In this document: piece after piece, positions 7,001 to 53,430 of the stretch
Layout of the letters: every line of letters starts with the position of its first letter
How positions within the stretch are numbered: the stretch's first letter is position 1
DNA from: Anaeromyces robustus
Lineage: Eukaryota > Neocallimastigomycota > Neocallimastigomycetes > Neocallimastigales > Neocallimastigaceae
DNA length: 64,000 nt
Assembly: GCA_002104895.1 (NCBI GenBank)
Contig: MCFG01000136.1
Coordinates: 1 to 64,000, forward strand
Direction of reading: 5' to 3'
Position numbers and translations under genes: made by a program
The notes under the pieces: model-generated
What the model was told of the DNA's origin: nothing
The model's database searches: none
What the model saw: only the letters and a program-made list of their open reading frames with translations

Positions 7001-8441
7001 AATCATCAAGGGCACGAACAGAACCCAATTTTTTAATATCTTTGTAAGCCTTAACTTTGAGTTTCTGAAGGTTAAAGATTTTTTGAGACATATGAAACAT
7101 AGATTCATGAATATCAGGAGTAGATACAATTTCCAATTCATCAGCAATAGAATTAGCAGTAGATACAAACATATCATATATAGCATTAGAAGAATAATAA
7201 TTATCTGTACATTCCTTCATAAGAATACTAAATCTATTACTAGTAGCAATTTTAATACTTTCGTCCAGACATTTGATTCTATTCCAACGAGCTGGTTTTT
7301 TAGGGAGTGAGAAAGTATTATTATCATCAAAATAATTTCCAAAAACAAGAAGAGGCTTATGATCGGAGATAGGAGAGAAATCAATAATTGAAGCTGAAGA
7401 CAGAAGATTTTTCATGGGTTCATTAATAATAGCATGGTCAATAGCAGAGGAACGACTTCCACTTACCCACGAGATAGGAGAACCATTGAGTTGAAATAAA
7501 TACCAGCCATTTATATTAGAAACCCAATTTTGAATATCTTCAAGATTAATGTTAAAATCGCCAAGGAGAATAGAAGGATGATGTAAGTGAAGAGAAAACC
7601 ATGTACAAGCTTCTGCTTTAGCAGATTTATGGTGTAAACTATGCCCTTTCTGAGGTATATAAATATTTCCAATAGAACACTTAGTGAAGTTCCACAAGGA
7701 ATATGTCGTAACTGAGATAATATAATTCAAAGAAAAATCTTCAATAGAAGTCTGTAAAGACCTATTATAAAAGATATATAAACCTCTCAAACCAGGAATT
7801 GTATTATTTGCTCTCTTACAGAAATATTTATATTTAGGTAAAGTGATTTTACAAGGAATAACATTACTAGAATTAGTACCATTACCAGTTTCTTGAAAAC
7901 AAACAAATAGCGGTTTAAAGAGACTAAAGAAATACAGAATACCATCTCTTTTCTTGTTATTCCACCCGTTAGTGTTCCAACTAAGACAAAAGGAAAATTC
8001 ATTCAAATTGTTCTTAGAAGTAAAAGAATTGTTGATTTCAGAAAAGTCAGTAATATCCTTAATGTTCTTTTTAGAGTGGCAAAGTTTTCTCCTGATAAGA
8101 GCAAAGGAAGGCTTGTGATTCTTCCTACTACATCGATGAAAGTTAATGGAACATTTTTTAATAATTAATTTGAAACTATCAATAAATTTATTAATATTCT
8201 CCTCAGAAGCTGTAGTTTTAATTTGATATAAATTATCATTGAGAAGAGAGGAATGTTTAACAGCAACGATGGTATTATTAAACTCAGGGAAATTCTTCTC
8301 AAGAAAATTTCTAAATTTTGGAAGAGTCCAAGAACGAATGCGACGGATAAAAATAACATAAGTATCTGAGATATCAATACCATGACACCTAATACCCCGT
8401 CTGATATAGTTAATCTTATTAGTATAGTTCGTATGATCCAT
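4017..8441 (-). CDS. LINE polyprotein: endonuclease plus reverse transcriptase
   Basis: This 1474-residue frame has no internal stop. Residues about 150-370 form an exonuclease/endonuclease/phosphatase-fold nuclease with LSWNTNGW (153-160), QE (183-184), GDFN (294-297), the IDH step (334-336) and SDH (359-361). Residues about 600-950 form the reverse transcriptase: SGPDDVPIEF, FLDLKKAYDS with D768, GVRQGCPLSP, and FADD with D866 and D867. The three catalytic aspartates are present. Downstream, CPCC-x8-H-x4-C resembles the C-terminal zinc knuckle of many LINEs. A long Asn/Ser-rich stretch follows, encoded by AAT-type repeats, then a conserved tail (YFLLGGR, LLVRTSALLLRIM) shared with the relics near 16.4 and 51.2 kb. 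The N-terminal 130 residues contain no obvious gag knuckle. The encoded protein would nick target DNA and copy the element RNA at the nick. Confidence 0.95.
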   Translation of the reverse strand: MDHTNYTNKINYIRRGIRCHGIDISDTYVIFIRRIRSWTLPKFRNFLEKNFPEFNNTIVAVKHSSLLNDNLYQIKTTASEENINKFIDSFKLIIKKCSINFHRCSRKNHKPSFALIRRKLCHSKKNIKDITDFSEINNSFTSKNNLNEFSFCLSWNTNGWNNKKRDGILYFFSLFKPLFVCFQETGNGTNSSNVIPCKITLPKYKYFCKRANNTIPGLRGLYIFYNRSLQTSIEDFSLNYIISVTTYSLWNFTKCSIGNIYIPQKGHSLHHKSAKAEACTWFSLHLHHPSILLGDFNINLEDIQNWVSNINGWYLFQLNGSPISWVSGSRSSAIDHAIINEPMKNLLSSASIIDFSPISDHKPLLVFGNYFDDNNTFSLPKKPARWNRIKCLDESIKIATSNRFSILMKECTDNYYSSNAIYDMFVSTANSIADELEIVSTPDIHESMFHMSQKIFNLQKLKVKAYKDIKKLGSVRALDDYIRLINNYQKLCDNIHKMCNHFRMLEYQHWVSVGCQLAINKDSRNWWKWIKKNTKIGKSSNFSLHPIKDNDDNIVYSSREQLNVWHDHYEKLASDSTGHSLYKPFWSNPANHKLYNFSNNIEWDINGEISIEEIRSAISDIPKFKASGPDDVPIEFFKAISTDLGNSDDSSDITNYGLSFLHLFYNRIWDGDFPDLWNTACIVSIPKKGDLYDCNNYRGISLINNCIKIISKIVTTRISTYAYKNNFIRPEQFGFRNKEECISLFVSIRTICQTRQNMGKDTYLAFLDLKKAYDSVPIYNILNKLECLGIRGKCYNFLKNLYLSSKACVKLDSQYSDTFNIEKGVRQGCPLSPILFNLFINNIFRDCNEYGVCIDNEYCCGGLFADDIVLCAPTRSKLNKLLKKVNDWAKFNLMEFGIGKCGTTVVKAENSKVKGDPTFYLAGQIIPKTNCYTYLGIPFDSDLSLKPIIKSTNNKVRKALFSVRGFLINPYMPISFKKSVFNSVVVSQVSYVAPLLGSNKTRTNGAQRLINKGLSWIAGLRKRSSFISLYNVSKDLNIPPLSAKCAIAQDKCFKRWADSNCIISKLVTIIPKMRKYTWAKESRTLSKKLSKIGSREDILTFYWNRDVKKDSVKAVTYCDNHLELSRDYLHLELEYPNLAYGFNWLLKIRSGYKFNSEIAKAAKLVSDSCPDYCPCCKGGSQTFEHWILECPTFDHWRSKLFGNLETIYLYVNRKPLVSSDNINFSNNFNNNYNNNIYDNIYNNNSSSNSNININSNNNGNSNDNSNINNVSNSNSTSLSTYFLYNYSQFINNLTINNIFFGFNYFNNFSSLENSSRNSTFLVSNSFIHYVSLTYNLNNTFSYSINNNNNSLNNSINYNNLVSNASSGVNFHSNSLEWSRVYYFLLGGRVNHYNLGKEEWNSLCKAQLKPSTFSDVPLLVRTSALLLRIMPTVSGQIWSLFNRYPNNLTKSVEADNSVGQDSRSHASNNDNNFPT

Positions 8442-12048: not shown

Positions 12049-12735
12049 TTAATTTTCAATATATTCAGTGATGTTGACATTGTTAACCTTACTGTATAAT
12101 TCAAGAGTTTTCTTACAGGCTTCATGGCTGTATTGTTTATCACGTCTAACACAGTGATCAATGCTAGTGTTATCTTGGACAATACAGTAAATCTTACCAT
12201 CAACTCTAACACATTCCTTGTCACTAATACTAACAGAATTCTTTGGAGTAGCTGGTTGAAGACAGATGTATTGGAAGGCTGCCTTGTAAGAAAGAACAAT
12301 ACCATCATGACCTCTGCATTCCTTTTGGTCAATAACGTAGTTATGAGTGAAAATCTTTTCATGAGTTGGGAATTTTCTAATACGGTATGGTAATTCATCA
12401 CTACCATCATCAACAAATTCTAAGAATTTGTAAGCACATTTGTCATAATCAGTAGCACCACTGTTCTTAGAACAACTTGGAATGTTACTGAAACCTTCTT
12501 CAACACAAACAACTTCATCATCATTATCATTAGTGAAGAAACAAGTTCTGTAATCTAAATCTTCCTTCTTTGGATGATGACGAAGACAAGTGTATTCACC
12601 ATTATCGTTAATGTAGAAGGTAGCTAAACCATCATCTTCACATTGCTTCTTAATAGTTTCAATGTTATTAACTGGGCTAGCATTAACAGCAGCTAAAGCT
12701 AAAACGGCAACACTGAGAATAGTCTTGAAATTCAT
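12049..12735 (-). CDS. Secreted two-module Cys-rich protein, array copy 2
   Basis: This 228-residue paralogue has the same signal peptide and all twelve cysteines of copy 1. Its predicted protein is identical to copy 3, and the DNA differs from copy 3 at only a few silent sites (for example near 12487 and 12677). Compared with copy 1 it differs mainly between the cysteines (for example the stretch before Cys140 and the NTSIDHC stretch), while the Cys frame and the YRIRKFPTHEKIF linker between modules are unchanged. Only one N-glycosylation sequon remains near the end (NIT). Function is unknown; the extracellular location is inferred from the signal peptide. Confidence 0.9.
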   Translation of the reverse strand: MNFKTILSVAVLALAAVNASPVNNIETIKKQCEDDGLATFYINDNGEYTCLRHHPKKEDLDYRTCFFTNDNDDEVVCVEEGFSNIPSCSKNSGATDYDKCAYKFLEFVDDGSDELPYRIRKFPTHEKIFTHNYVIDQKECRGHDGIVLSYKAAFQYICLQPATPKNSVSISDKECVRVDGKIYCIVQDNTSIDHCVRRDKQYSHEACKKTLELYSKVNNVNITEYIEN

Positions 12736-17583: not shown

Positions 17584-18270
17584 TTAATTTTCAATATATT
17601 CAGTGATGTTGACATTGTTAACCTTACTGTATAATTCAAGAGTTTTCTTACAGGCTTCATGGCTGTATTGTTTATCACGTCTAACACAGTGATCAATGCT
17701 AGTGTTATCTTGGACAATACAGTAAATCTTACCATCAACTCTAACACATTCCTTGTCACTAATACTAACAGAATTCTTTGGAGTAGCTGGTTGAAGACAG
17801 ATGTATTGGAAGGCTGCCTTGTAAGAAAGAACAATACCATCATGACCTCTGCATTCCTTTTGGTCAATAACGTAGTTATGAGTGAAAATCTTTTCATGAG
17901 TTGGGAATTTTCTAATACGGTATGGTAATTCATCACTACCATCATCAACAAATTCTAAGAATTTGTAAGCACATTTGTCATAATCAGTAGCACCACTGTT
18001 CTTAGAACAACTTGGAATGTTGCTGAAACCTTCTTCAACACAAACAACTTCATCATCATTATCATTAGTGAAGAAACAAGTTCTGTAATCTAAATCTTCC
18101 TTCTTTGGATGATGACGAAGACAAGTGTATTCACCATTATCGTTAATGTAGAAGGTAGCTAAACCATCATCTTCACATTGCTTCTTAATAGTTTCAATGT
18201 TATTAACTGGACTGGCATTAACAGCAGCTAAAGCTAAAACGGCAACACTGAGAATAGTCTTGAAATTCAT
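17584..18270 (-). CDS. Secreted two-module Cys-rich protein, array copy 3
   Basis: The protein is identical to copy 2 across all 228 residues, with the same twelve-cysteine layout and signal peptide. DNA differences are few and silent (for example GTTGCTGAAACC here against GTTACTGAAACC). Its spacer, by contrast, differs from spacer 2 by insertions, deletions and many substitutions. The identical proteins therefore suggest recent conversion, or strong purifying selection on the coding part. Function unknown. Confidence 0.9.
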   Translation of the reverse strand: MNFKTILSVAVLALAAVNASPVNNIETIKKQCEDDGLATFYINDNGEYTCLRHHPKKEDLDYRTCFFTNDNDDEVVCVEEGFSNIPSCSKNSGATDYDKCAYKFLEFVDDGSDELPYRIRKFPTHEKIFTHNYVIDQKECRGHDGIVLSYKAAFQYICLQPATPKNSVSISDKECVRVDGKIYCIVQDNTSIDHCVRRDKQYSHEACKKTLELYSKVNNVNITEYIEN

Positions 18271-22462: not shown

Positions 22463-23131
22463 TTATAATTCAGTGATAACGTGGTGGTTAATAGTACCAT
22501 ATTCCTTAAGAATACTACTACATTCTTCATGATCATAACTGTAACTACGTCTATTACAAATTTCAATATTAGTGTTATCTTGAACAACACAGTAAACTTT
22601 ACCATCAACTCTAACACATTCCTTGTCACTAATGGTTGCAGCATTCTTTGGAGTAGCTGGTTCAAGACAAATGTATTGGAAAACTTCTTTGTTAGTAAGG
22701 ACAATACCATTATGACCTCTACATTCCTTTTGATCAATGGAGTAATCATAGAAAATCTTTTCGTGAGTTGGGAACTTTCTAATTCTGTAACTTAATTTAT
22801 TACTACCATTATCTAAGAACTCTAAGTATTTACGAGCACATTCATTGTAATCACTTTCATCACCAGTGTTCTTAGAACAACTTGGAATGTTGTTGAAACC
22901 TTCTTCAACACATCTAATATCGGAATTAACAAAGTAACAAGTTCTGTAATATAAATTATCTTCAATACTGTGTTGACGAAGACAAGTGTATTCACCATCA
23001 TCATTAACATAGAATTTAGCTTTGTGATCAGCTTCACAGTCCTTCTTAATAGTTTCAATGTTATTAACTGGGCTAGCATTAACAGCAGCTAAAGCTAAAA
23101 CGGCAACACTGATAATAGTCTTGAAATTCAT
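22463..23131 (-). CDS. Secreted two-module Cys-rich protein, array copy 4
   Basis: A 222-residue diverged member: same signal peptide, cysteines at 32, 50, 65, 74, 85, 98 and 137, 155, 172, 181, 192, 204. Here module 1 has lost three residues between Cys3 and Cys4 (spacings 18-15-9-11-13), making it closer to module 2 (18-17-9-11-12). The C-terminus is shorter (ends HHVITEL). It differs from copy 5 by a single residue in the signal peptide (Ile7 against Leu). With copy 5 it forms a second subfamily next to copies 1-3. Function unknown. Confidence 0.9.
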   Translation of the reverse strand: MNFKTIISVAVLALAAVNASPVNNIETIKKDCEADHKAKFYVNDDGEYTCLRQHSIEDNLYYRTCYFVNSDIRCVEEGFNNIPSCSKNTGDESDYNECARKYLEFLDNGSNKLSYRIRKFPTHEKIFYDYSIDQKECRGHNGIVLTNKEVFQYICLEPATPKNAATISDKECVRVDGKVYCVVQDNTNIEICNRRSYSYDHEECSSILKEYGTINHHVITEL

Positions 23132-25749: not shown

Positions 25750-26418
25750 TTATAATTCAGTGATAACGTGGTGGTTAATAGTACCATATTCCTTAAGAAT
25801 ACTACTACATTCTTCATGATCATAACTGTAACTACGTCTATTACAAATTTCAATATTAGTGTTATCTTGAACAACACAGTAAACTTTACCATCAACTCTA
25901 ACACATTCCTTGTCACTAATGGTTGCAGCATTCTTTGGAGTAGCTGGTTCAAGACAAATGTATTGGAAAACTTCTTTGTTAGTAAGGACAATACCATTAT
26001 GACCTCTACATTCCTTTTGATCAATGGAGTAATCATAGAAAATCTTTTCATGAGTTGGGAATTTTCTAATTCTGTAACTTAATTTATTACTACCATTATC
26101 TAAGAATTCTAAGTATTTACGAGCACATTCATTGTAATCACTTTCATCACCAGTGTTCTTAGAACAACTTGGAATGTTGTTGAAACCTTCTTCAACACAT
26201 CTAATATCGGAATTAACAAAGTAACAAGTTCTGTAATATAAATTATCTTCAATACTGTGTTGACGAAGACAAGTGTATTCACCATCATCATTAACATAGA
26301 ATTTAGCTTTGTGATCAGCTTCACAGTCCTTCTTAATAGTTTCAATGTTATTAACTGGGCTAGCATTAACAGCAGCTAAAGCTAAAACGGCAACACTGAG
26401 AATAGTCTTGAAATTCAT
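25750..26418 (-). CDS. Secreted two-module Cys-rich protein, array copy 5
   Basis: A 222-residue protein, identical to copy 4 except for residue 7. Coding DNA differs from copy 4 at only a handful of sites, yet the 3' flanks diverge immediately after the stop codon. The upstream flank stays alignable through the TATA block. It is the last member of the array to the right. Twelve-cysteine layout as in copy 4. Function unknown. Confidence 0.9.
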   Translation of the reverse strand: MNFKTILSVAVLALAAVNASPVNNIETIKKDCEADHKAKFYVNDDGEYTCLRQHSIEDNLYYRTCYFVNSDIRCVEEGFNNIPSCSKNTGDESDYNECARKYLEFLDNGSNKLSYRIRKFPTHEKIFYDYSIDQKECRGHNGIVLTNKEVFQYICLEPATPKNAATISDKECVRVDGKVYCVVQDNTNIEICNRRSYSYDHEECSSILKEYGTINHHVITEL

Positions 26419-36616: not shown

Positions 36617-39192
36617 ATGCATTTCATAGAACAATTTGTTAAATTGTTTGTTATATTTTTAAATATAACTATAATTAATTCTACAATAATAAATGGTTAT
36701 TTTTATAATATTTTTCCAGAGAGTGAGATTTCAACAAAAGATATTATAGAATCTTATTTTGAAAATCATAAAAATGAATTTAAAATTAATTCAGATATTA
36801 ATTTAAAAATAACAATTTCAAATAGTACTAATTTTAAAGATTATATTGAAGAAGTTAAAAAAGAAATTACTCAATCAAAATATCATATCTTTTTAATTGA
36901 TTATAATACTTTATTTAGTGATTATTCTTATTATAAAGATGGTGACTATGATTTATTATCTGATTTTAATGAAAAAGATATACCTGAGGATTATGAGAGA
37001 ATGGATATACAACCTAAAAAATTAAATACAAAGGATTTTTATACATATACTATACCACTTAATAAATATTTAAGATATGATGATGAAAAAAGTAATAATC
37101 CTGGATATATTAATTATAGAATATATGAAGATTGTGAATTAAATGATAATTATTATGCTTATCCATTTAGTGCTTCATATGATTTATTATTCTATAATAA
37201 AAACTATTTTAAAAAATTAGGAATTGATTTCAATAAACTTGAAAATTGGAATGATGTTAAAAATATTATCTCTGAATATCAACAAAAAGTTGATAATACT
37301 AAATATGGTATAAATATGGGGTTAAATTCACCAGAAGAATTTATAGCTTTTTTATTAGAATATTTTCATATTATAAATAATAAAAGTTATAATGAATGTG
37401 CTACTGGTTATTTACAAAATAAAAATAGTATTAAATCCAATGAAATAAAATATTATGATTATTATCAATGTGGACTTGGATATGAAATATTTTATGAAAA
37501 TGATATAGAAAAAGAAAAAAGTAGTCATATTTTTAAATCTATTAATGATTTATTAAAAAATAAAATTATTAATCCAAATAGTTTATCATATAATGGAATA
37601 CAAGCACTTGATCATTTTTTAAATGAGGAATCCATATTTTTTAAAGGAAATTATACTTCATTTATGAATATTGTAAAAAGAGTTTATTTATCATCAAATA
37701 ATACTAACTTATCATCCAATTCTTTTAGAAATAGTACTACTATTAAATCTATTTTACAAAATGTAACTATATCAACTGAAGATATATTTAAAGAAAGTGA
37801 TAAATTTGGAGTAACAATTATTCCAGGTGGTTATTCAACCTATGATGGTTATGCTTTAATTGGTAATAATCATGCTGATTTTAATCAATTATATTATGAT
37901 ATCACTCAAATAATAATTTTATTAACATCAGAGTATGCACAAGTTGATCGAGCTGTTAATTATGATATGTCTCCAGCATTTAATTATAATAATATTATTG
38001 AAGAATCTATATCTTCTATGTGTCAATATATACCATGTAATATTTATAAGAAAATAAAATCAATATCGTTAACTAAAACATTTTCATCCAAGGCTAGTTC
38101 TACTAATAATAATATAATTAAAAATATGGATGGTATTTTTAGAAAATATTATAATGAAGATGATGATATTTTATTGGATAATGAACTTCTTGATAGAATA
38201 AAAATTCTTTTAACTATTCATCATATGAAATGGTATAGCTTTATTTGTCTATTTACAATTATTCTTGGTATTTTTGGTGTCTTACAATGTATATTTTTAA
38301 TAATATTTATTTTCAAAAATAGAAAGAATGAAATCCTAAAAGAATCTTATCCTATAGCTACTATTATTTATATTTATGGAATATCATATTTTTTCATTAT
38401 CATTATAGCAGATACTTTAGGAAATTCTATAAATTTATATTCACATTGGATGGCTGCTTTTTATCTTCATTTTCATTATTACATGACAACTATAGCTTAT
38501 TCAGCTTATTTCTATAAACTCTGGAATGTAAATATTAAATTTAATCAAGAGAAATTTATACGTTGTGGTATTAATTTTTCAAAAATTCCCATTACTTTCA
38601 TTATTTTTGCTGTTATATTTTTTGAATTTTTTATGATTATATTATTAAACGTATTATCTCCATTAGAATTATCAATCTATTTTTATTATAATAAGAGTAT
38701 TAATAAATATGAAAGATTACCTATGTATTATAGTGACTATTATCCTTTTTTCGTAACAGTATTGAATTATATCGTCTTTATATTGGTATGTTAATTAAAA
38801 TTTTTAATTCTATAAACTGATATATATAATTATTTTATACTATTAATTATTAATAATATAAACTATCATTTTATTTTTATTAATTATATTATATTATATA
38901 TATAATATTATGTAATTATTTTTTTTTAATATATAAAATATAGCTTTTTTTAAATTGTTTTTTCATATTTATGTTAAGAAATGTTAAATATTATTTTAAT
39001 GAATATAAACCATTTATTTATTCAGTAATAATTGTTTTCATTGGATATTTTATAGAAAGCACAGGACATAAATTTAATGAAGAAGTTCAACAATCAATAC
39101 ATTGTAGTATATATTTCTTTACTGGAATAATTTTTTTGATATTAACAGTATTACCAAAAGTTATAGAAGTTAAACAGAAGAAAATTAATTAG
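36617..39192 (+). CDS. SBP-ectodomain / 7TM class C-like receptor (2 exons)
   Basis: The model joins 36617-38785 and 38944-39192 into 805 residues. It has a signal peptide (1-23), then a long ectodomain (about 28-530) resembling bacterial extracellular solute-binding proteins: YAYPFSASYDLLFYNKNYF followed by KLGIDF and W-x-D sets the classic lobe pattern. Next comes a seven-helix bundle with TM1 at about 541, TM2 at 578, TM3 at 612, TM4 at 658, TM5 across the splice at 715-733, TM6 near 746 and TM7 near 776. RNVKYYFNEYK after TM5 resembles the TR-V-x3-F-N-E-x-K stretch of GABA-B-type receptors. Such SBP-7TM proteins are known to be expanded in gut fungi; a nutrient or sugar sensor at the plasma membrane is likely but the ligand is unknown. 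Many NxS/T sequons fit secretion. Exon 1 alone would stop within TM5, so the spliced form is preferred. Confidence 0.85.
38786..38943 (+). other. Intron of the receptor gene
   Basis: The 158-bp intron has donor GTATGT and acceptor ATATAG, phase 0. Splicing joins FIL to LFLNCFFIF and restores a full helix. It has no coding potential and is more A/T-rich than the exons. Confidence 0.8.
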
Positions 39193-40103: not shown

Positions 40104-41890
40104 CTAGGATTAATCTTTATTTATATTATTAATTTAAAATAAATATACATGTGACATAAATATTACATGAAATGTAAATTAAATACAAGTAATAAAAGAT
40201 ACAAAAAATAAATAAAATTTATTACAGATATTAATCAAATTAAAATATTAAATAAAAAAAAAGGAAAGAAGTTAAACTTCTAACCTCTCCCATTCAACGA
40301 ATGAGATACCATTCGAATCCGTGTCGGAATAAATTCCATGCCTTATCTTTTCGACGTCGACGCCCTTGAAGCCGCCCGGAGTGTTCTTATTGTTATTATA
40401 CCAATTAAGAAGAATCCGAAAGGAAATATTCACAATTGGCATGACAACAGTAAGAAAATGCGACAGACCCGCAATATACGGAACAGGAGACTCGGGTGAA
40501 CCTTTGAAAAGTTGTCCACGCCACCATCTCCGTTCCCTCTTAATATCTAGTTTATCAAATGCATAACACCCATCAAGGAAAGCGTTAAGCATCAAGTAAT
40601 ATATATTATTTTCAAAATCTTCGTCTAAGTCCTCAGAAAATCCCAGTGAGTTAGTTCGATTAATTTGGGTGAACTTCGAGTTTAAGTCAACATTGTGTTT
40701 AATAAAAGTATTTCTATCCTGTTCAAAGGCCTTACAATTGAATATCCAATGAGAGAAACTTTGCGTTTTTTCACCACAGCAAGGGCAGCAAGTAGGAAAG
40801 TTTTCAAGTGAAGACTTACCTTTAAGTAGAAACTTATAGTTAAACTGAAAACCGCTGCGTATTCTCATAATCCAGAAGAACCCCAGTTGGTATTGGGGGT
40901 ATGATAAAGCAAGATCCTGTATATCTTTAGAAGGTCCATATTTACATTCCAAGTATATAGAAGCTCTTTTAGCTGGATTTTTTGTTAGCACATCTCTAGT
41001 TATATACTTATCAATAATTTCCTCTTTAGTAAGACCTGATAATTTCTTTTTTAGGGTACGAGATTCTTTAGTCCATGAATAATAATAAGGCATAGTAGGA
41101 ATATTTGTGATTAGTTCTTTAATAATACAAGAAGATTTTCCCCATTTATCGAAACAACGAATTTGAGCAATAGCACAAATAGCTGAGAAGGGAATGAACC
41201 AAAATTCGCGAGAAATGGAATAGGTACATGTGTTAGGGTTGGTAGATTTATGTCCAAGACTCCAAAATAGACCTCTATTAAATATAGATTGGGCTTTTTT
41301 GGTTTTAGTCTTATTTGAACCTAAAAGGGGGGAATAGTAATTTAAGATACCGATAATATGGGAAGAAAGAATTCTTCGTTTAAGAACCAATGGGATGTTG
41401 CGGTTAAGGAGAAAACGAGAGAATGAATTTATAGTCAGGTTAAGTTTTGAATTAAGATTAGAAATGATAGGTTTAAGGGAAAGAGAATTGTCAAAAGGGA
41501 TACCAAGATATTTATAGGAAGATGTTTTAGGAATTTTATTGATACCTAGAAAGAAGGTCGGGTCAGAATAATTATGAGGAAGAGAGAGTTTAAGTGGTTT
41601 AATAACCATTGTAGCACATTTGTTGATACCAAAGGTCATTTCGTTGGTTTTGGCCCAATCGTGTACACGAGATAAAAGTGCTCTGAGTTTACTCTTGGTA
41701 GGAGCAATGAGAACAATGTCATCAGCAAAGAGACCACCACAACAGATTGAACTACCACATGAAACTCCATAGTTGGAACAATTATTCAAAATATCATTAA
41801 TGAATAAATTGAATAAAATTGGGGATAAAGGGCAGCCTTGGCGAACACCACGGTTTATAGGGAATTCATTTGAAAGTTGATTATTCAGTG
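40076..41890 (-). mobile_element. 5'-truncated LINE of a second family
   Basis: Poly(A) at the 3' end (T run 40076-40100) and direct repeats ATTATTATTATTT at 40063-40075 and 41891-41903 frame the fragment. The repeats lie in simple sequence, so the boundary is less secure than for the first LINE. The 3' untranslated region (40101-40271) shares nothing obvious with the other LINE 3' ends here. The protein is clearly related to, but distant from, the LINE at 4017. Confidence 0.85.
40272..41890 (-). pseudogene. C-terminal part of LINE reverse transcriptase ORF
   Basis: The frame is open from the truncation point to 40272 (about 540 residues) with no internal stop. It starts within the reverse transcriptase at QLSNEF, then GVRQGCPLSP, LFADDIVL (two catalytic aspartates), a thumb-like region and CPCC-x8-H-x4-C. 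The endonuclease and the first catalytic aspartate are missing, so the piece cannot act alone. An in-frame ATG at the natural start is absent because the 5' part was never copied. Intact reading suggests a fairly young insertion. Confidence 0.9.
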
Positions 41891-42865: not shown

Positions 42866-43891
42866 CTAACAATAATTATCAATATATTTATCTCTGGCAG
42901 CACAACGATTTAACCAACCTTGTAAAAATTGATATTGTGAAGCATTACTATAAGCAGCATCTATGAAATCTTGACGACTAATGTCATTTAATTTACGAGC
43001 ATATTCCTTACTACTCATGTTACCAATAGGATTTTCACGAATAATATCTCTAGCTCTGTATGGTCCATTTAATGATAAGTCAAGACAAACGAAATAAGCT
43101 GGTTGTGGTATACTATCACAACCGGCAATAGAACCAAATCTTTGAGCATAAAGATTAGAAGTACTTTCTTTGAATTTTTCTTTATTTAAATCAAAAGCAC
43201 ATTTAATAAATAATACAGGATCATTACTACATCTTGATAAAGCATATTGATAATATTTTTTGTTTTCCCAACCAGTAGATGGAGTAACACCCATACAAGT
43301 GTAACCAATTCTACCATTCATTTGATTACCTCTATCATCTGACATATTTTGACATAAACCTTCATTTTGGAAAATTTGTGGCAATGATTCATAAGCTTTA
43401 GATTTTCCAGACTTTGTAGCATTTGGATTTCTAACAGTTGGACATGTATTAGTTACTGGAACATCATTACCAATAACTACGTTATTATCACTTTCTTTAT
43501 TAATATTTGGAACACATAATTGAACTTGTTGACTTCCTGGACATTCAGGAGAACTTATTAAATAATTATCGTTAGTGTTACAATAATTAATATTTATACA
43601 TCTACCAGGAGCATCATTTCTAAGAGTATCACCATTAGTAAGTTTAGTAACGGATTTAATACAACAAATAACATTGTCTGGATCATTTGGACATGGCCAA
43701 TTAGGATAGCTACCTTCATATTTTTCAACACTAGCTATTTGACCTCTTTGTTTCTCACATTGATAATCATATACACAAACACCTTCTATTTTTTTATTTC
43801 CAACTTGCTTAAAACATCTATCATCGGTACGGCCAAAAACAAAAGATGGAGAAACTAAGAAAACAGTAAGTAATTTGTAACTAAAACGCAT
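42866..43891 (-). CDS. Secreted GH108-type muramidase with N-terminal Cys-rich region
   Basis: A 341-residue protein predicted to cleave the glycan strands of bacterial peptidoglycan outside the cell. Residues 1-20 are a signal peptide. A Cys-rich region follows (Cys 26, 39, 45, 67, 76, 77, then 98, 104, 117, 126) with PCPNDPDNVICC and ECPGS, almost the same as in the two NlpC/P60 genes downstream. After a Ser/Asn linker, residues about 165-341 resemble glycoside hydrolase 108 (ZliS-type lysozymes): NEGLC with Glu177 in the place of the catalytic Glu of the EGGY motif, GYTCMGVT in the place of the usual GIT step, LDLSLNGPYRARDII, and FLQGWLNR near the end. The usual EGGY is altered to EGLC and extra cysteines are present, as expected of a secreted eukaryotic version. 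Bacterial origin by transfer is inferred. It is divergent from the gene at 46385. The family call is by motif only. Confidence 0.75.
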   Translation of the reverse strand: MRFSYKLLTVFLVSPSFVFGRTDDRCFKQVGNKKIEGVCVYDYQCEKQRGQIASVEKYEGSYPNWPCPNDPDNVICCIKSVTKLTNGDTLRNDAPGRCININYCNTNDNYLISSPECPGSQQVQLCVPNINKESDNNVVIGNDVPVTNTCPTVRNPNATKSGKSKAYESLPQIFQNEGLCQNMSDDRGNQMNGRIGYTCMGVTPSTGWENKKYYQYALSRCSNDPVLFIKCAFDLNKEKFKESTSNLYAQRFGSIAGCDSIPQPAYFVCLDLSLNGPYRARDIIRENPIGNMSSKEYARKLNDISRQDFIDAAYSNASQYQFLQGWLNRCAARDKYIDNYC

Positions 43892-46384
43892 TTTTTTTAA
43901 TTTATTTATTAATATTAATTTATTTTAATATTAATTATTTTTATTTATTTATTTATTTATTTATTTTAAAAAATTTTTTTAAGAATATTTGTCTTTATTT
44001 ATACTTTTCATATGTTATATACATTGTTTGTAATAACAGTATTATAATAACATAATGTATTATAAATTTAAATATAACATTGTTTATTTTTATTTTTTTT
44101 TAATAACTACTTGATCATATATAAATTATTATATTTATATATATAAGTAATCAAACTTTAAATTAAAAAATAATAATAATTATAGTTAGAAGTAATAATA
44201 ATAATTAATAATAATAATAATTAATAATAATAATAATACTAATAATAATAAATAATAATAATAATATTAATAATATAAAAATAATAATAATAATAATAAT
44301 AATAAAATATTAAATATAATAATTCTTTAGATGTACCATATTTGTATATTTTTTATTAAAAAAAATTTTTTTTATTCTTTTTTTTTGCTATTGTTCATAT
44401 TTAATAATTAATTGACGAATGATTGTACACTTAAAAATTTTTATTGATTTAAATTAAAAAATTTTATTTATTAATAAATAAAATAAATAATTAATAAATA
44501 TATATATATATTTTTTTAAAAAAAAATAAATAATGCTAGTGACAGTTTTAAAAAAATTTTTTTATAACAATTGTTTAATTAATACAAAAAATACCCTCTT
44601 TTTTATGGTAAAATGGTTAATATTATAATTAAGAGATAATATTATAAAAATATATATTTAAATATAAATTAAATTAAAAAAATTAAATTAAATGGTTACA
44701 TCTTTAAAAAAAAAAAAATTAAATTTATATATTTTTCAAAATATTAAATAATAATAAATAATAAATGTTTTTTTTTTTTTTTTTTTTTTTGATTTAATTA
44801 AATACATATATGTTAATGTTAATAGGTATTATTCATTTTAATCCATTTAATTTTTTTTATAAAAAATCTTATTTTATTAAATTTCTCTTTCAAAGCATAG
44901 TCGATAATTTACATATTCTAACATTTATTTATTAAAACAATTATAAATATAATATTGATAATAATAATAACAATGTTTTATTAATATATATTATATGTTA
45001 ATATATATTATAAATAAATAAATAAACAATTCAAATAAAGTACTCCACAGTTTAATCAATTAGTATATAGAAGTTTTTTGATTAAAATTATAAATTAGTA
45101 TTTGTTTTTTATTTATTTATTTGTTTTTTATTTATTTATTTATTTTATAATAAATGCAGATTGTATTAAATTAAAATAATATATTTGTTTGTTTATTTAC
45201 ATTTATTGATTTATAGAATTGAAAAATATAATAATAATTGGTATAATTAAAACTGAAGGTGAAACAATTTCTTTAATAAATAATATATTAAAAAAATCTT
45301 ATTTGACAATGTAACTTTATATAAGAAAAATCATTGTATTATAATAGAAGATAATACAATTGTTTTTTCTTGAATATTATGCTTATTAATTTTTAATCTT
45401 TAATAAATATTTTACCTAAATAAAAAATTATATTAAATGTATAAAAATATATAATAATTCTAACTTGGTATAGATATAACAAGTAATAAGTTATTTAATA
45501 ATTATTAGTAATTTCTAATAATTTATTATAAAATTTATTTAAATAGGCATTTAATAATAATAATTAAAATGAAAATAAAAAAAAAATTACTTTGTAAAGG
45601 ATAAAATAAAATAAAATAATAATTAATAGCAAATCAATATTGATTAAATTAATTAAATCATGATCAGTAATATATTTAATAATAAAAGTGAAACAATTGT
45701 ATAAAAAGTAAAGATATAGACATAACCGTAACAATGAATAAATAATAATAGTTAATAATAAGATTTGAATATAATAATTTTAATAATAATATAATAATAA
45801 TAAAAATATTAATAAATAATAATAATAATAATAAAAAATTTTATTTAAAATATTAAATAAACTGTAACATCAATAAGTATTTAATTATATTTAATAATTT
45901 TTTTTACTTCAATTATTTCCATTTTTATAAGTTGATTGGAAACATTTTCAATATTTACTGTAATATATTTTATTATAACGTGATTAATTATTATATAAAT
46001 AGAATAATATAAAAATAAATATATTTTAAGTATTATTCTATTATATATAATAAATAATTATATTTAATTATTAAAAATATTCATAGATGTTTTATACACC
46101 AATAATATTATAAATAATAGGATAACAATAATAAAAAAATAAAAATTTTTTTTTTTTTAATTATTATTTTATGATAATATATGACAATGATTTAGATAAA
46201 GTATATTATAATTAAATAATAATATATAATAATATAATAATTATGGATATATATATATAAGTATTATATCACTTTTTTTATATAAATAATTATAGAAATA
46301 TATAAAAAAAGAATAAAAATAAAAAGAAAAAAAATTAAAAGAATAAAAAAATAAAATAAAAAAAAATTATTAAAATTTATAAAA
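43892..46384. other. Divergent intergenic region between wall-hydrolase genes
   Basis: A 2.5-kb A/T-rich region with TATAAATA on the minus strand at 43996-44003 (105 nt before the muramidase ATG) and TATATAAATA on the plus strand at 46280-46289 (96 nt before the NlpC/P60 ATG). (AAT)n tracts lie near 44210-44320. No gene is seen; a very weak Mur-ligase-like stretch near 45220 is discussed under findings. Confidence 0.5.
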
Positions 46385-47173
46385 ATGAAATTCAGCATAA
46401 AATTAATTTCTTCACTTTTGACTATAACATCAGCTTATGCTTACCTTGATGAAGCATGCATTGCTGGTAAATATGGTTATGGTGTTTGTGAAAAAAAGTC
46501 TGATTGTATAATGAAAAAAAATCAAATAGGTAATGTCAACTATTTGGAAGCTACTACATCTTATAATCCATGTCCTGATGATTCAAAAGATGTTGTTTGT
46601 TGTGTAAAAGAAATTTCTAAACTTTCAACTGGAGAATATGTTTCTAATATTCCTGGTGTTAAAAAAGGTGCTACTAGTGCTGTATGTCAAAATGCTCGTG
46701 AGTGTAGTGGTACATTATTTGGTGATGAAGAATGTCCAGGAAGTTCTCGTGTATTATTATGTGTTCAAGAAAATCAAAAATCTTTAGGACAACAAATTGT
46801 TGATTATGCAAGACTTTTTATTGGTACACCATATAAGTCTGGAGGAGATGATCTTAATAGTGGTGTGGATTGTTCTGGTTATACTCAACAAGTTTATAAA
46901 CATTTTAATATTAATATCCCAAGAAATGCTGATGCTCAATCTAAGAGTGGTGTATCTGTTAAAAGTACTAATGATGCTCAACCTGGTGATTTATTCTTTT
47001 ATTGTGACAATTCTGGTTATGCTTATCATGTTTCTATGTATGCTGGTAGAAGTCAATTTAATTATTATGATCCAGTTGGTAATGATATGGTTCTTAATGC
47101 ACCTACCCCAGAAACAACAGTTCGTGAACAACATAATTGGGAAAAACCATGTCGTATTAGAAGATTTATTTAA
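46385..47173 (+). CDS. Secreted NlpC/P60 peptidase, Cys-rich N-terminus, copy 1
   Basis: A 262-residue predicted cysteine peptidase that cuts peptidoglycan stem peptides. Signal peptide 1-19. The Cys-rich region spans 25-126 (Cys 25, 35, 41, 63, 72, 73; 101, 107, 117, 126; GVC, PCPDD, VVCC, ECPGSS). The NlpC/P60 domain runs from about 135 to 262: LGQQIVDYARLFIGTPY, VDCSGYTQQV with nucleophile Cys163, QPGDLFFY, and YHVSMYAG with His215. The third catalytic position, His in most relatives and in the second copy, is Asn238 here (VLNAP), and the preceding loop is about ten residues longer. Asn is tolerated in some NlpC/P60 enzymes, so activity is uncertain but possible. It is paralogous to the gene at 49698 and in tandem with it. 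Bacterial-type domain with a fungal-style secretion signal suggests transfer followed by fusion. Confidence 0.9.
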   Translation: MKFSIKLISSLLTITSAYAYLDEACIAGKYGYGVCEKKSDCIMKKNQIGNVNYLEATTSYNPCPDDSKDVVCCVKEISKLSTGEYVSNIPGVKKGATSAVCQNARECSGTLFGDEECPGSSRVLLCVQENQKSLGQQIVDYARLFIGTPYKSGGDDLNSGVDCSGYTQQVYKHFNINIPRNADAQSKSGVSVKSTNDAQPGDLFFYCDNSGYAYHVSMYAGRSQFNYYDPVGNDMVLNAPTPETTVREQHNWEKPCRIRRFI

Positions 47174-47744
47174 ATTTGAAATATTAAAAGAAGAAAAAAA
47201 AATATATTTTTTAAATTTTATTAAAAGTATATTAAAAAAAAAAAAAAAAAAAACAATTTTTAAAGCTAAAAAATAAAAAAATATATAAATTGTATATTTA
47301 TAAATAATTATAAATAAATAAAGCAGAGAAAAAATAAATTATAATAAATATTAAAAAATGTAATATATTAGAAACCTATAAAGTAAATAAAATATATTAA
47401 TAAAAATTATTTGGTATAAATGATAATAATATTAAATCAATAAATACATGTAAAACAAAACAAAACAAAATATAAATATAAATAAATATAAAATAAATAT
47501 AAAATATAAAAAAAAATTAAAGTAATAATAAATATATCTTTAAAAAAGAAAACATTTATATTTATAATGAAAAATAATACAAATAACGAATAATAACAAG
47601 TAATTATCAATAAATAAAATAAATAGAATATTAATGAAGTATAAATTAGAATTATTTAAAATAAATATATAAATATATAAAATGGTAATAATAATAGTCA
47701 ATGATTTTGGTATATACTCTTAATTTTTAATAGTTATATATAAA

Positions 47745-47829
<85 letters not shown>

Positions 47830-48475
47830 TATTATTATTGCTATTTTGATTTATTGATTTATTAAATTATTTATTTATTTTATTTATTTAATGAAAATTA
47901 TAAAAACTATTAATTTTGAATTTATTTATTAAACTTTTTATGATTCTTATTATATATTGTAAGTATTGATTAATTTTTTAATATATTTAAATGAAAATTT
48001 CCAAAAGAAAAAATTTTAATATAAATTATCATTTTTATTTATTTTAGTAGGAATTATTTTACCATGTCTCCCTTTATTTGACTATTGTATAAAAAAAAGG
48101 GTGTTAAAAGAGTGGATATAGGGCAGTAAAATATATATGTATCTAATATTTATTACCCTATCCACTTTATCCATTAATTTGTATTTATTTATACAATACA
48201 GAATTAAAAGGTAAATACAAGACACTTTATAAATGTATGGTATCTTGCATATACAATATTCAGTATTAACTAAAATATAATATATATTTATATACATCAA
48301 TAAAATTAATTATAGATTATTATTATAATATCTAGTTATATAATGAATAAAATTATTGTACATAACAATAACATTCAATAATTAAATTATGATACAAAAA
48401 TTTAAAAAAAAAATATTAATTTTTAATGTTAAGTAATTATTTTCAATATATATAATTGTAAGATAATAACAATAT

Positions 48476-48565
<90 letters not shown>

Positions 48566-48665
48566 TAACAACAACAACAACAACAACAATAATAATAATA
48601 ATAATAATAACAATAATAATAATAATAATAATAATAACAATAACAACAACAACAACAACAACAAC

Positions 48666-48724
<59 letters not shown>

Positions 48725-48734
48725 CAACAACAAC

Positions 48735-48770
<36 letters not shown>

Positions 48771-49697
48771 TTACAACAGAATTTTCATTTTTTCATTAAA
48801 AAAAAGAGGAGAAAGCATAAATAATTAAATATATAAAATAACCATATATTTAATTAAAGTTTTATCAACATTAAATATTTGATTTTTTATACAGACATTA
48901 TACTAATTAATATTAAAAAAAAAAAAAAAGACTATAAAATAAAAAAATTTTATTAATTTTTTTTATTTAATTTTACTCTAAAATTAGAATATATAAATAT
49001 AAAATTTTATTTTTTATTTTTCATTATTAAAAGCTTAATAAATATATAATTATAAAAAAAACTAATAAAAATAATGAATTATTGAATTTATTAAAGATAA
49101 TTCATTATTCATGGAATAAAGAATTATCCTTGATTAAATATAAAGTTAAATATAGATTAAGATAAATCTTAATTATTATATATTTAATTAATTTATACTT
49201 TGCGAAATAATGATCAATTGTTAATTTATATAATAATAATAATAATAATTAATTAAATATATTAGAAAAAAAATCATTTAAAGTAATAATAATAATTATA
49301 AGATAATAATTGAATATAATTATTTATAATTGAATATAATTATTTATTATGTATTTTTAATATATTATTGTTAAATTAAAAGTCCTCTTTATTTATATAA
49401 ATAACTTATATTTTTAAATTTATAATTAAAATTATGATACTATATAAATAATAATATTACAATTAATTTTATAATTAAAATGATGTTACATTACAATTAT
49501 TTTTATAATTAAAATATTAATATAATAATAGTTCATATTGAAAAAAAAAAAAAAAGAAATAAAAAATAATAAATTTAAATAATATAGAAAGTAAAAAATG
49601 AAAAATTATATAAATTGAAGTATTTCATCATTTGTATTTTTATTCAAATAAATAAAATATAAAATAAAATAAAATAAAATAAAAAAAAAAAAAAAAA
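47174..49697. other. Spacer between NlpC/P60 genes
   Basis: No gene. (TAA)n meeting (TTA)n at 47749-47829 forms a perfect inverted repeat; a GC-richer hairpin lies at 48111-48166; (AAT)n/(AAC)n occupies 48478-48767. A TATATAAAT lies at 49608-49616, about 82-90 nt before the next ATG. Confidence 0.6.
48478..48767. repeat. (AAT)n/(AAC)n compound microsatellite
   Basis: About 290 bp of alternating AAT and AAC blocks, two of which are repeated as whole blocks. On the minus strand it reads as a meaningless poly-leucine frame. Confidence 0.95.
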
Positions 49698-50471
49698 ATG
49701 CGTTTTAATTTTAAACTTCTTTCTATTCTTTTAGCTGCTCCAGCAGCTTTTGGTTATATTGATCAACCATGTAATGCTGGTAACTATGGTAAAGGTGTTT
49801 GTGTTAAAAAAAGTGAATGTACAATGTATAGAAATCAAAAAGGTAGCGTTACAGCATATACAGGATATGCTCCAAATTGGCCATGTCCAAATGATCCAGA
49901 TGATGTAATTTGTTGTGTTAAGACTGTTTCTAGACTTATTAATGGTAAAAATGTTTCAAGTATTAGTGGTGTTAAAAGTGGTACTACTAGTGGTAGATGT
50001 TTAAATACTAGTAATTGTTCAGGTATTAAAGTTACAACTCCAGAATGTCCAGGTAGTAATCGTGTTATGTTATGTGTTGATAAAGCCACTGGTGGCGGTG
50101 GTGGCGGTGGCAGCACTTTAGGTCAACAAATTGTTAATTATGGTAGACAATTTATTGGAAATCCATATGTTTATGGTGGTAATGACCTTAATAATGGTGT
50201 TGATTGTTCAGGATTTACTCAACAAGTTTATAAACACTTTGGTTATAATATTCCAAGAATTGCTAATGATCAATCATGGTATGGAAAAGCTGTTAATGGT
50301 GTTAGTAATGCTCAACCAGGTGATTTATTCTTCTATTGTAGTAATGGAAATGCTTATCATGTTACTATGTATACTGGTAATGGTAGAGTTGTACATGCTG
50401 CTGATGAAAGACAAGGTATTAAAGAACAAAATAACTGGGAAACACCATGCCGTATTAGAAGAATTATTTAA
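49698..50471 (+). CDS. Secreted NlpC/P60 peptidase, Cys-rich N-terminus, copy 2
   Basis: A 257-residue paralogue of the gene at 46385 with a complete predicted triad: Cys170 (VDCSGFTQQV), His221 (YHVTMYTG) and His233 (VVHAADE). Signal peptide 1-19. The Cys-rich region has all ten cysteines at the same positions as copy 1 (25, 35, 41, 63, 72, 73, 101, 107, 117, 126), including PNWPCPNDPDDVICC, which is closer to the GH108 protein than to copy 1. A Gly linker (TGGGGGGGST, 131-140), absent from copy 1, separates it from the catalytic domain. Two extra cysteines (214, 251) flank the active site and match 207 and 256 of copy 1. Likely a secreted peptidoglycan endopeptidase; substrate bond not decidable here. 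Confidence 0.92.
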   Translation: MRFNFKLLSILLAAPAAFGYIDQPCNAGNYGKGVCVKKSECTMYRNQKGSVTAYTGYAPNWPCPNDPDDVICCVKTVSRLINGKNVSSISGVKSGTTSGRCLNTSNCSGIKVTTPECPGSNRVMLCVDKATGGGGGGGSTLGQQIVNYGRQFIGNPYVYGGNDLNNGVDCSGFTQQVYKHFGYNIPRIANDQSWYGKAVNGVSNAQPGDLFFYCSNGNAYHVTMYTGNGRVVHAADERQGIKEQNNWETPCRIRRII

Positions 50472-52329: not shown

Positions 52330-53430
52330 TTAAACAGTAAATTTATCATTTGGGCTTAATGGACGATTTGAAGAAATTTGTGGAATTTGAGCAAATTTTC
52401 TATCAGCGATACATTTTCTAATACCAACTAATAATTCATGAATAGTGTATTCTTTCTTATCATTTAATAATTTCATTAAATAGTGAGACATTACACCAGA
52501 TTTAACTTTACCCATTTTAATATCAGTACTTTTTTGATCATCTCTACAACTTGAAATTTGAATAACTTCTCCTTTACTTTGTAATTTTTTAATAGTAGCT
52601 GGGTCAATACCATTACTTGCAGCTTTTCTAAGAGAACCATCGAAAATACTTTTAAGAGAATCAGCAATAGCTGCAGGATTACCAGTATTAATAGTTTTTA
52701 CAACATCGTTAGTTTTTTCGAAAATAGCCTTACGTACATCATTATCAATAACTTCAACATCTTGCTTATATTGATAGGTGTATGGAAGATCCATAATAGT
52801 ACCAGAATGACAACAATCGAAAATAGCAGTTAATTTACAACCTTTTGGTAAAGGTTCAACTAATAATTGATGAATTTTATCATCAATAATTCTACCTTTT
52901 GAACCAAAGTCACATGGAATAATAGATTCATCAAAACCATCCATTTCATCACCATTATTATCTTTAACTCGAGCACCATGACCACTGAAGTGGAATATTA
53001 AGGAATCACCAGCTTTAGCATCTTTTACAAGCCATTTCATAGCATTAGTAATATTATTATGAGTTGGTTTTTGTTTTTCATCTTTAGATTCATCAGTTAA
53101 TACCATTATATCTTTAAATCCAAATTTATTTTTAAATAATTCAGAAATATTAATAGCATCACTAACACAACCCATAAGTTTATGTTTTGAATTTACATAA
53201 TTAATACCAATGAAGACACCTTTTTTTTTACCAGAACAATCAGATCTTACAAAATTGTCTCCATCTCTTTCTTCATAGAATTTTTTGATATCTTTACTCC
53301 ATACTTCTTGGATTTTAATTTGATTATGTACATTATCAGTTACATTGACTGGGTTCTTTTTAACAACCTTCTTTTTAACGACCTTTTTTACTGTCTTTTT
53401 TGCTCCCTTTTTTTCTGGTGCAGCAGCCAT
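52330..53430 (-). CDS. Type I metacaspase (peptidase C14 family)
   Basis: A 366-residue caspase-fold cysteine peptidase that would cut after Arg or Lys, used in stress, proteostasis and death-like responses in fungi. KKGVFIGINYVNSKHKLMGC opens the p20-like part. SGHG carries His151 and DCCHSG carries Cys207, the catalytic pair. IQISSCRDDQKS and SGVMSHYLMKLL mark the p10-like part. The N-terminus is not the Pro/Gln-rich prodomain of many fungal metacaspases: residues 7-26 are Lys/Val-rich (KKGAKKTVKKVVKKKVVKK), which could bind nucleic acid or membranes or direct nuclear entry. No signal peptide, so cytosolic or nuclear. Single exon, ending at TAA. Substrates unknown. Confidence 0.93.
   Translation of the reverse strand: MAAAPEKKGAKKTVKKVVKKKVVKKNPVNVTDNVHNQIKIQEVWSKDIKKFYEERDGDNFVRSDCSGKKKGVFIGINYVNSKHKLMGCVSDAINISELFKNKFGFKDIMVLTDESKDEKQKPTHNNITNAMKWLVKDAKAGDSLIFHFSGHGARVKDNNGDEMDGFDESIIPCDFGSKGRIIDDKIHQLLVEPLPKGCKLTAIFDCCHSGTIMDLPYTYQYKQDVEVIDNDVRKAIFEKTNDVVKTINTGNPAAIADSLKSIFDGSLRKAASNGIDPATIKKLQSKGEVIQISSCRDDQKSTDIKMGKVKSGVMSHYLMKLLNDKKEYTIHELLVGIRKCIADRKFAQIPQISSNRPLSPNDKFTV

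Follow-up and report, generated by a model that had tools for sequence, protein, structure and literature searches.

Eukaryotes are known to borrow bacterial lysins, and transfers of NlpC/P60 genes into fungi are among the cases already on record. Among the closest described systems is that of the NlpC/P60 hydrolases of Trichomonas vaginalis, like the fungus studied here a eukaryote of a bacteria-rich habitat, whose genes are of lateral bacterial origin, possibly through two events (PMC6299479 and PMC10461829, in the portions available). As the available portion of PMC6299479 describes, these hydrolases carry N-terminal accessory domains and have bacterial targets, which would also be the targets of the enzymes reported below; it also mentions previously published candidates for NlpC/P60 transfer in fungi, mites and Acanthamoeba. 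Piromyces is named among the fungi richest in GH24 lysozymes in the accessible text of PMC8778642. Here we analyse a window of 64,000 nucleotides from the anaerobic fungus Anaeromyces robustus (the whole stretch under study, positions 1 to 64,000 of contig MCFG01000136.1, forward strand, assembly GCA_002104895.1), in which three neighbouring genes for putatively secreted peptidoglycan hydrolases, one GH108-like and two NlpC/P60, share a cysteine-rich N-terminal module. On profile evidence this module belongs to a six-cysteine repeat that accompanies wall hydrolases of several families throughout the genome. No description of the repeat, or of such a hydrolase set in anaerobic fungi, was present among the open-licence literature matches listed.

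A sequence-only reading of this DNA had placed a GH108-like gene and two NlpC/P60 genes within 7.6 kb, and the coordinates, complete frames and Pfam cut-offs bear this out. All three open reading frames (ORFs) run uninterrupted from ATG to stop. Their signal peptides were read from the sequence alone and are putative. The features are as follows (aa, amino acids; module units are described further below).

42866..43891, minus strand: putatively secreted GH108-like protein, 341 aa; complete ORF, PF05838 at 25 bits, phrog_315 endolysin match
43832..43891, minus strand: putative signal peptide of the GH108-like protein, residues 1-20
43661..43816, minus strand: module unit 1 (six cysteines), residues 26-77
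43514..43660, minus strand: module unit 2 (four cysteines; lacks C1 and C5), residues 78-126; unit profile 21.2 bits
42869..43453, minus strand: GH108 catalytic region, residues 147-341; Pfam stretch 172-275, invariant Glu177
46385..47173, plus strand: putatively secreted NlpC/P60 protein, 262 aa; complete ORF, PF00877 at 63.4 bits
46385..46441, plus strand: putative signal peptide of the 46385 protein, residues 1-19
46457..46603, plus strand: module unit 1 (six cysteines), residues 25-73
46604..46762, plus strand: module unit 2 (four cysteines), residues 74-126; outside the 19 profile-scored modules
46823..47104, plus strand: NlpC/P60 domain of the 46385 protein; Cys and His retained, third polar position Asn, not His
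49698..50471, plus strand: putatively secreted NlpC/P60 protein, 257 aa; complete ORF, PF00877 at 77.5 bits, PDB relative 7cfl
49698..49754, plus strand: putative signal peptide of the 49698 protein, residues 1-19
49770..49916, plus strand: module unit 1 (six cysteines), residues 25-73
49917..50075, plus strand: module unit 2 (four cysteines), residues 74-126; unit profile 20.6 bits
50157..50429, plus strand: NlpC/P60 domain of the 49698 protein; Cys-His-His

The 42866 protein was indeed recovered by the GH108 profile (PF05838), as had been expected of it, at 25 bits against a cut-off of 21.2 (E 2.8e-5; 27.2 bits in the six-frame search). It also matched the phage endolysin family phrog_315 (E 0.0022), and its Glu177, part of an EG motif, is invariant among the five full-length and seven domain sequences aligned; we presume this residue to be catalytic. 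A search of PDB sequences with the same protein returned zero matches at E<=1. Both NlpC/P60 proteins lie far above the cut-off of 23 bits for NLPC_P60 (PF00877). Their cysteine and histidine are invariant in all five sequences aligned and are followed by a third residue that is His in the 49698 protein and Asn in the 46385 protein, an arrangement that we take to be the catalytic Cys-His-polar triad. Through its NlpC domain the 49698 protein matched 40 distinct PDB sequences at E<=0.1, with 7cfl (E 1.3e-17) and 3h41 as the best. The family identity of the three catalytic domains is strongly supported by these profile matches.

The N-terminal modules (residues 26-126 of the GH108-like protein, 25-126 of both NlpC/P60 proteins) contain exactly ten cysteines each, and the motifs GVC, PCPxDxxxVxCC and ECPGSxxVxLC occur in all three, as previously proposed. 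A fourth copy is found in a GH108 twin on another contig (C590:167819-168853; contigs are labelled C plus a number), and the ten cysteines are all invariant across an alignment of 20 modules. Since the pairwise alignment scores exceed those of 500 cysteine-fixed shuffles (z 8.0, 14.2 and 13.8), the likeness goes beyond a mere cysteine pattern and chance resemblance is ruled out. SH3 identity was likewise discarded, as the Pfam scan of the three window proteins gave no SH3 family at E<=1.

The sequence-only reading had treated this region as one. A common module there is, but it consists of two six-cysteine repeat units, one of them reduced, and not of a single ten-cysteine domain, a candidate that we reject as both halves match the unit profile. 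This profile was derived from 170 canonical six-cysteine units taken from other proteins and scored against 19 window-type modules (P0001-P0019, the 46385 protein being left out). Their second halves reached 14.5-31.4 bits; in 18 of the 19 none of 200 cysteine-fixed shuffles scored as high, and for the GH108 window protein one of 200 did. The first halves also match, mostly more weakly (about 11-28 bits), and have a longer C3-C4 loop. Because the halves match in this way, the ten-cysteine region can be read as two repeat units, and on profile evidence the module is a derived pair of a repeat of ~35 residues, the second copy of which has lost Cys1 and Cys5. Six cysteines are kept in 442 of 499 unit matches in the proteins and ORFs searched, while C1 and C5 are both absent from 14 fully aligned and 2 partial unit matches, the five displayed being second units of window-type modules. 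An ORF on C627 reads as an intermediate, with a second unit that lacks C1 and ends in VQLC, followed by a six-cysteine unit. In the window the repeat is present as a fixed pair of units with six plus four cysteines. A tree of 22 window-type modules is weakly resolved, with 3 of 19 inner branches starred. Overall its labels cluster by partner (7 changes against a shuffled mean of 13.6), clearly so for SH3 and GH25, but those of GH108 show no such clustering (5 changes, a figure reached or undercut in 244 of 500 shuffles). The tree fits some exchange of partners, without proving it.

To place the module in its genomic context, we searched the 70.17 Mb of the A. robustus genome (769 contigs); six-frame searches score the best candidates only, and with contig ends and broken frames the counts are to be taken as approximations or minima. 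A four-unit repeat query gave 124 matches at E<=0.01. Among those read, 37 loci hold at least one unit (3 in the window, then 28 and 6 further), weak matches on C69, C438 and C128 being left out. An ORF carries from 1 to 42 copies, the maximum lying in a frame of 2104 aa on C325. Eight wall-hydrolase family searches produced 28 domain matches, 22 of which share an ORF with the repeat: 10 of 12 for PF18013, 4 of 6 for NlpC/P60, 3 of 3 each for GH108 and M15_3, 1 of 1 each for GH25 and PF11860, 0 of 2 for PF00959 and 0 of 0 for C39_2. The earlier claim that the shared region is joined to unrelated catalytic folds thus holds for GH108 and NlpC/P60 and extends to GH25, M15, PF18013 and PF11860. 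Searches of the same genome for Amidase_2 and VanY gave zero matches. Domains that stand without the repeat include PF00959 on C719 and C253 (the latter with two SH3_3 domains) and a PF18013 protein at C183:58876 that carries CW_7 repeats instead (four matched stretches); on C193 PF18013 adjoins unit frames in a broken gene, which we counted as an exception.

Several further observations concern this gene set. A broken near-copy of the repeat-only gene C92:113699-114415 lies at C287:64852-65414 on the minus strand; the public protein model P0023 (BCR32DRAFT_296909) skips the break, and two frames on C287 hold most of the P0023 sequence. On C383 (L159) one six-cysteine unit is followed by a tandem domain, by eye like the C-terminus of the NlpC proteins on C495 and C584, and then by a hydrophobic stretch. 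Also by eye, a C-terminal domain is common to C183:58876-60897, C311 (L161), the end of the C325 frame, P0024 and P0028. It gave a single, sub-threshold match to NlpC/P60 (in C183, E 0.074) and is perhaps a divergent NlpC/CHAP-type peptidase.

Similar associations are seen in other proteins. A search with the module returned 16 proteins: four GH25, three GH108, one NlpC (the window's own), one PF18013, five SH3_3 (one of them, P0006, under the Pfam cut-off) and two without a Pfam family. As the module alone was scored, the search did not select these partners. A search with canonical units returned 62 proteins, assigned to C39_2 (18), NlpC (7), M15_3 (7), PF00959 (3), PF11860 (2), PF18013 (2), VanY (2), ribonuclease, CBM_1 and CLIP (1 each), the others having none of these. 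Whether C39_2 takes part in wall cutting is uncertain; with it set aside, 23 assignments among the 62 repeat proteins fall to wall-hydrolase families. Named sources of module and repeat proteins include Piromyces sp. E2, P. finnis, A. robustus, Mycena and Trichophyton, and one of these proteins, P0042, is labelled as from a Bacteroidaceae metagenome-assembled genome (MAG). Two metagenomic PF18013 proteins, P0080 and P0081, have a C-terminal six-cysteine unit, and the start of P0080 looks like that of a bacterial lipoprotein; because of these features the repeat may also occur in bacteria. Searches for the repeat in phages and plasmids found none, and in viral contigs no match was confirmed for either NlpC or the repeat.

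The NlpC/P60 domains of the fungus branch among Bacillota. Among the best 80 of 561 bacterial relatives the closest are Bacillota, led by the Lachnospiraceae MAG RUG13313 (56% identical), whose prefix we take to denote rumen origin; the eight best phage records are 44-50% identical and come from human faeces. In a tree with 11 rows from fungi and 34 from bacteria, the latter hand-picked from the 80, the C255 domain joins two MAGs of Clostridia (98/92), one of which it matches at 68% identity over 90 columns. The ten remaining fungal rows form a weakly supported group (85/80) that also takes in one row from Anaerococcus. A single fungal clade is rejected (approximately unbiased test, p-AU 0.0215). 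Because of this rejection and the C255 grouping, at least two incoming NlpC domains, from at least two Bacillota sources, were probably joined to the repeat. As the two window domains group with those of C495 and C584, which lack units (94/96), repeat units would also have been gained or lost.

The clustering of hydrolase genes asserted in the sequence-only reading is true of the window but not general: among the loci read, 28 of 37 have no other repeat locus on their contig, and the NlpC family search gave zero matches on C590, the 215 kb contig of the GH108 twin. C447 has four repeat loci in 41 kb and C92 has two. When 36 genes were placed at random on a line of genome length, three fell within 7.6 kb in a fraction of 5e-5 of 20,000 placements, so the window cluster is unlikely to have arisen by chance; this test ignores tandem duplication, which would explain the two window NlpC genes (domains 63% identical). 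Tight grouping of repeat genes is therefore local.

Taken together, we consider it fairly likely that the three hydrolase genes of the window belong to a set of putatively secreted peptidoglycan hydrolases that spans the genome, is joined to the six-cysteine repeat and is aimed at gut bacteria. The catalytic domains would have been acquired from bacteria or phages, NlpC more than once, and then fused to the repeat. The proteins would leave the cell through their putative signal peptides, and the repeat would anchor them on a surface, for which the bacterial wall is our first choice and the fungus's own wall or plant fibre the second. There GH108 would cut the glycan strand and NlpC/P60 the stem peptide, jointly opening or loosening the wall of nearby gut bacteria, in competition on plant fibre or for food. 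We infer secretion, disulfides, enzyme activity, the repeat's binding target, synergy and the antibacterial purpose alike. In the available portion of PMC8406330, A. robustus and Fibrobacter are antagonistic in coculture, for which the authors invoke secondary metabolites, and bacterial efflux pumps are raised in the A. robustus coculture; the words lysozyme, peptidoglycan and NlpC have zero occurrences in its main text as far as available. The same study produced RNA-seq of the fungus in the presence and absence of Fibrobacter succinogenes UWB7. According to a later paper (PMC10734481, available portion), Fibrobacter grown together with anaerobic fungi, of which A. robustus and C. churrovis were tested, raises glycosyltransferases for which roles in the cell wall are predicted. 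Both reports fit an attack on the wall and neither demonstrates one. A bolder and more doubtful possibility is that the repeat constitutes a eukaryotic module for the recognition of bacterial walls, not described before, and serves as the standard landing part for acquired lysins (at least 22 enzymes in six families), and that this arsenal, beyond small-molecule antibiotics, underlies the antagonism to rumen bacteria. It would offer a protein-based explanation for the published A. robustus-Fibrobacter antagonism.

A number of results weigh against a set of acquired lysins aimed at bacteria. The GH108 score of the 42866 protein is modest (25 bits). The proposal that these are transferred bacterial hydrolases is supported for NlpC/P60 and stays tentative for GH108, for which no relative was found in phages, bacterial genomes or viral contigs at the sensitivities used. 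Some fungal NlpC proteins lack the repeat (C495, C584), several repeat ORFs are without a recognised enzyme in the part read (C92:113699, C261, C250, C627), and the repeat partner in P0077 is a ribonuclease; because of the last two points the repeat is not tied to peptidoglycan alone. PDB sequence searches with the repeat gave one match, to NFAP, that is not credible (E 0.038), and another search none at E<=0.01. Finally, CBM_1 stands beside repeats on C101, beside repeats plus PF18013 on C384, and just under the cut-off on C252, so that plant fibre is indicated for part of the set. Along with repeat-only ORFs such as C92:113699 and the protein P0079, which combines CBM_1, VanY and one unit, these neighbours could mean that the repeat fastens the enzymes to plant fibre or to the wall of the fungus itself, giving an armed surface without bacterial binding. 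We regard this as rather unlikely, since CBM_1, where present, would bind fibre already, and the commonest recognised partners of the repeat are wall hydrolases, as would be expected of a module that binds the wall they cut.

The repeat might, alternatively, be a clip-like regulatory or protective prodomain that keeps the enzyme inactive or protease-resistant until cleavage. Clip domains have the cysteine order C-C-C-C-CC with disulfides C1-C5, C2-C4 and C3-C6, and the joint loss of C1 and C5 from the second unit fits the first of these pairs, a weak argument from one event among 15 possible pairs; we gave no weight to the single-cysteine departures seen in P0026 and P0066. The clip-type resemblance suggested by the sequence-only reading finds some weak support, in that Pfam CLIP (PF12032) is above cut-off in two repeat proteins, C261 (38.1 bits) and P0077 (23 bits), but these matches reach profile positions 1-18 or 1-19 of 54 only, and CLIP had zero matches at E<=1 in the three window proteins. 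With copy numbers of 1 to 42, and with units that also follow the catalytic domain (P0080) or stand alone (C92:113699), a prodomain is in our view improbable. Tandem small cysteine-rich repeats on secreted enzymes also resemble the dockerins of fungal cellulosomes, and the repeat could then serve for docking, gathering the enzymes on a scaffold. CBM_10 is the fungal dockerin family, and its zero matches in Pfam scans of the window, module and repeat proteins (one tally at E<=0.001) rule out dockerin identity and leave a docking role with little probability. It is hardly credible that the genes are bacterial contamination or whole bacterial genes of recent transfer, even though their frames are uninterrupted and their catalytic domains of bacterial type: at 0.08-0.11, their GC content at third codon positions (GC3) comes close to the 0.123 of the neighbouring metacaspase gene, with intergenic DNA at 10% GC; window frames read as reverse transcriptases of long interspersed nuclear elements (LINEs); kin occur in Piromyces and Anaeromyces records; and the best bacterial match to a window NlpC domain is just 56% identical.

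Beyond the hydrolase genes, the window contains a family of five paralogous proteins (222-228 aa) that begin like signal peptides; their genes are distributed over 26 kb on the minus strand (576-1262, 12049-12735, 17584-18270, 22463-23131 and 25750-26418). The proteins at 12049 and 17584 are identical, and scans of two of the five gave no Pfam family over cut-off. A protein of 725 aa (36617-38794, plus strand) combines a solute-binding-like N-terminus with a seven-transmembrane part like that of class C G-protein-coupled receptors, both under the Pfam cut-off. The metacaspase-like protein lies at 52330-53430 on the minus strand (Peptidase_C14, 126.5 bits). The minus-strand frame 4017-8441 (1474 aa) reads as a LINE-type reverse transcriptase and has a related partial frame at 40272-41789 (minus strand), as judged by the reading frames alone.

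Compared with known systems, the window GH108 resembles GH108 muramidases and phage endolysins in passing the Pfam cut-off and conserving the glutamate of the EG motif, but it belongs to a divergent eukaryotic branch that has extra cysteines, with zero bacterial or phage relatives in the scans made. With Pfam CLIP the repeat has in common a six-cysteine order ending in CC and the partial profile match in two proteins; it differs in that the match covers the first third of the profile only, no serine protease partner is seen, and the repeat measures ~35 residues and occurs in tandem. Known fungal wall hydrolases with an SH3-like wall-binding domain likewise show several catalytic families sharing one domain, which there has ~73 residues and two disulfides, whereas the A. 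robustus module, which lacks an SH3 match, consists of two units with ten cysteines between them. In the genome studied here a single repeat links six lysin families, at 1 to 42 copies per protein; should bacterial walls be what it binds, it would count as a new recognition module, of use in aiming or stabilising lysins. In T. vaginalis, according to the available portion of PMC6299479, the accessory domains are bacterial SH3, nine proteins share one catalytic fold, and activity has been shown. In A. robustus, by contrast, where the system is known from its sequence, a cysteine-rich accessory repeat is common to six catalytic families.

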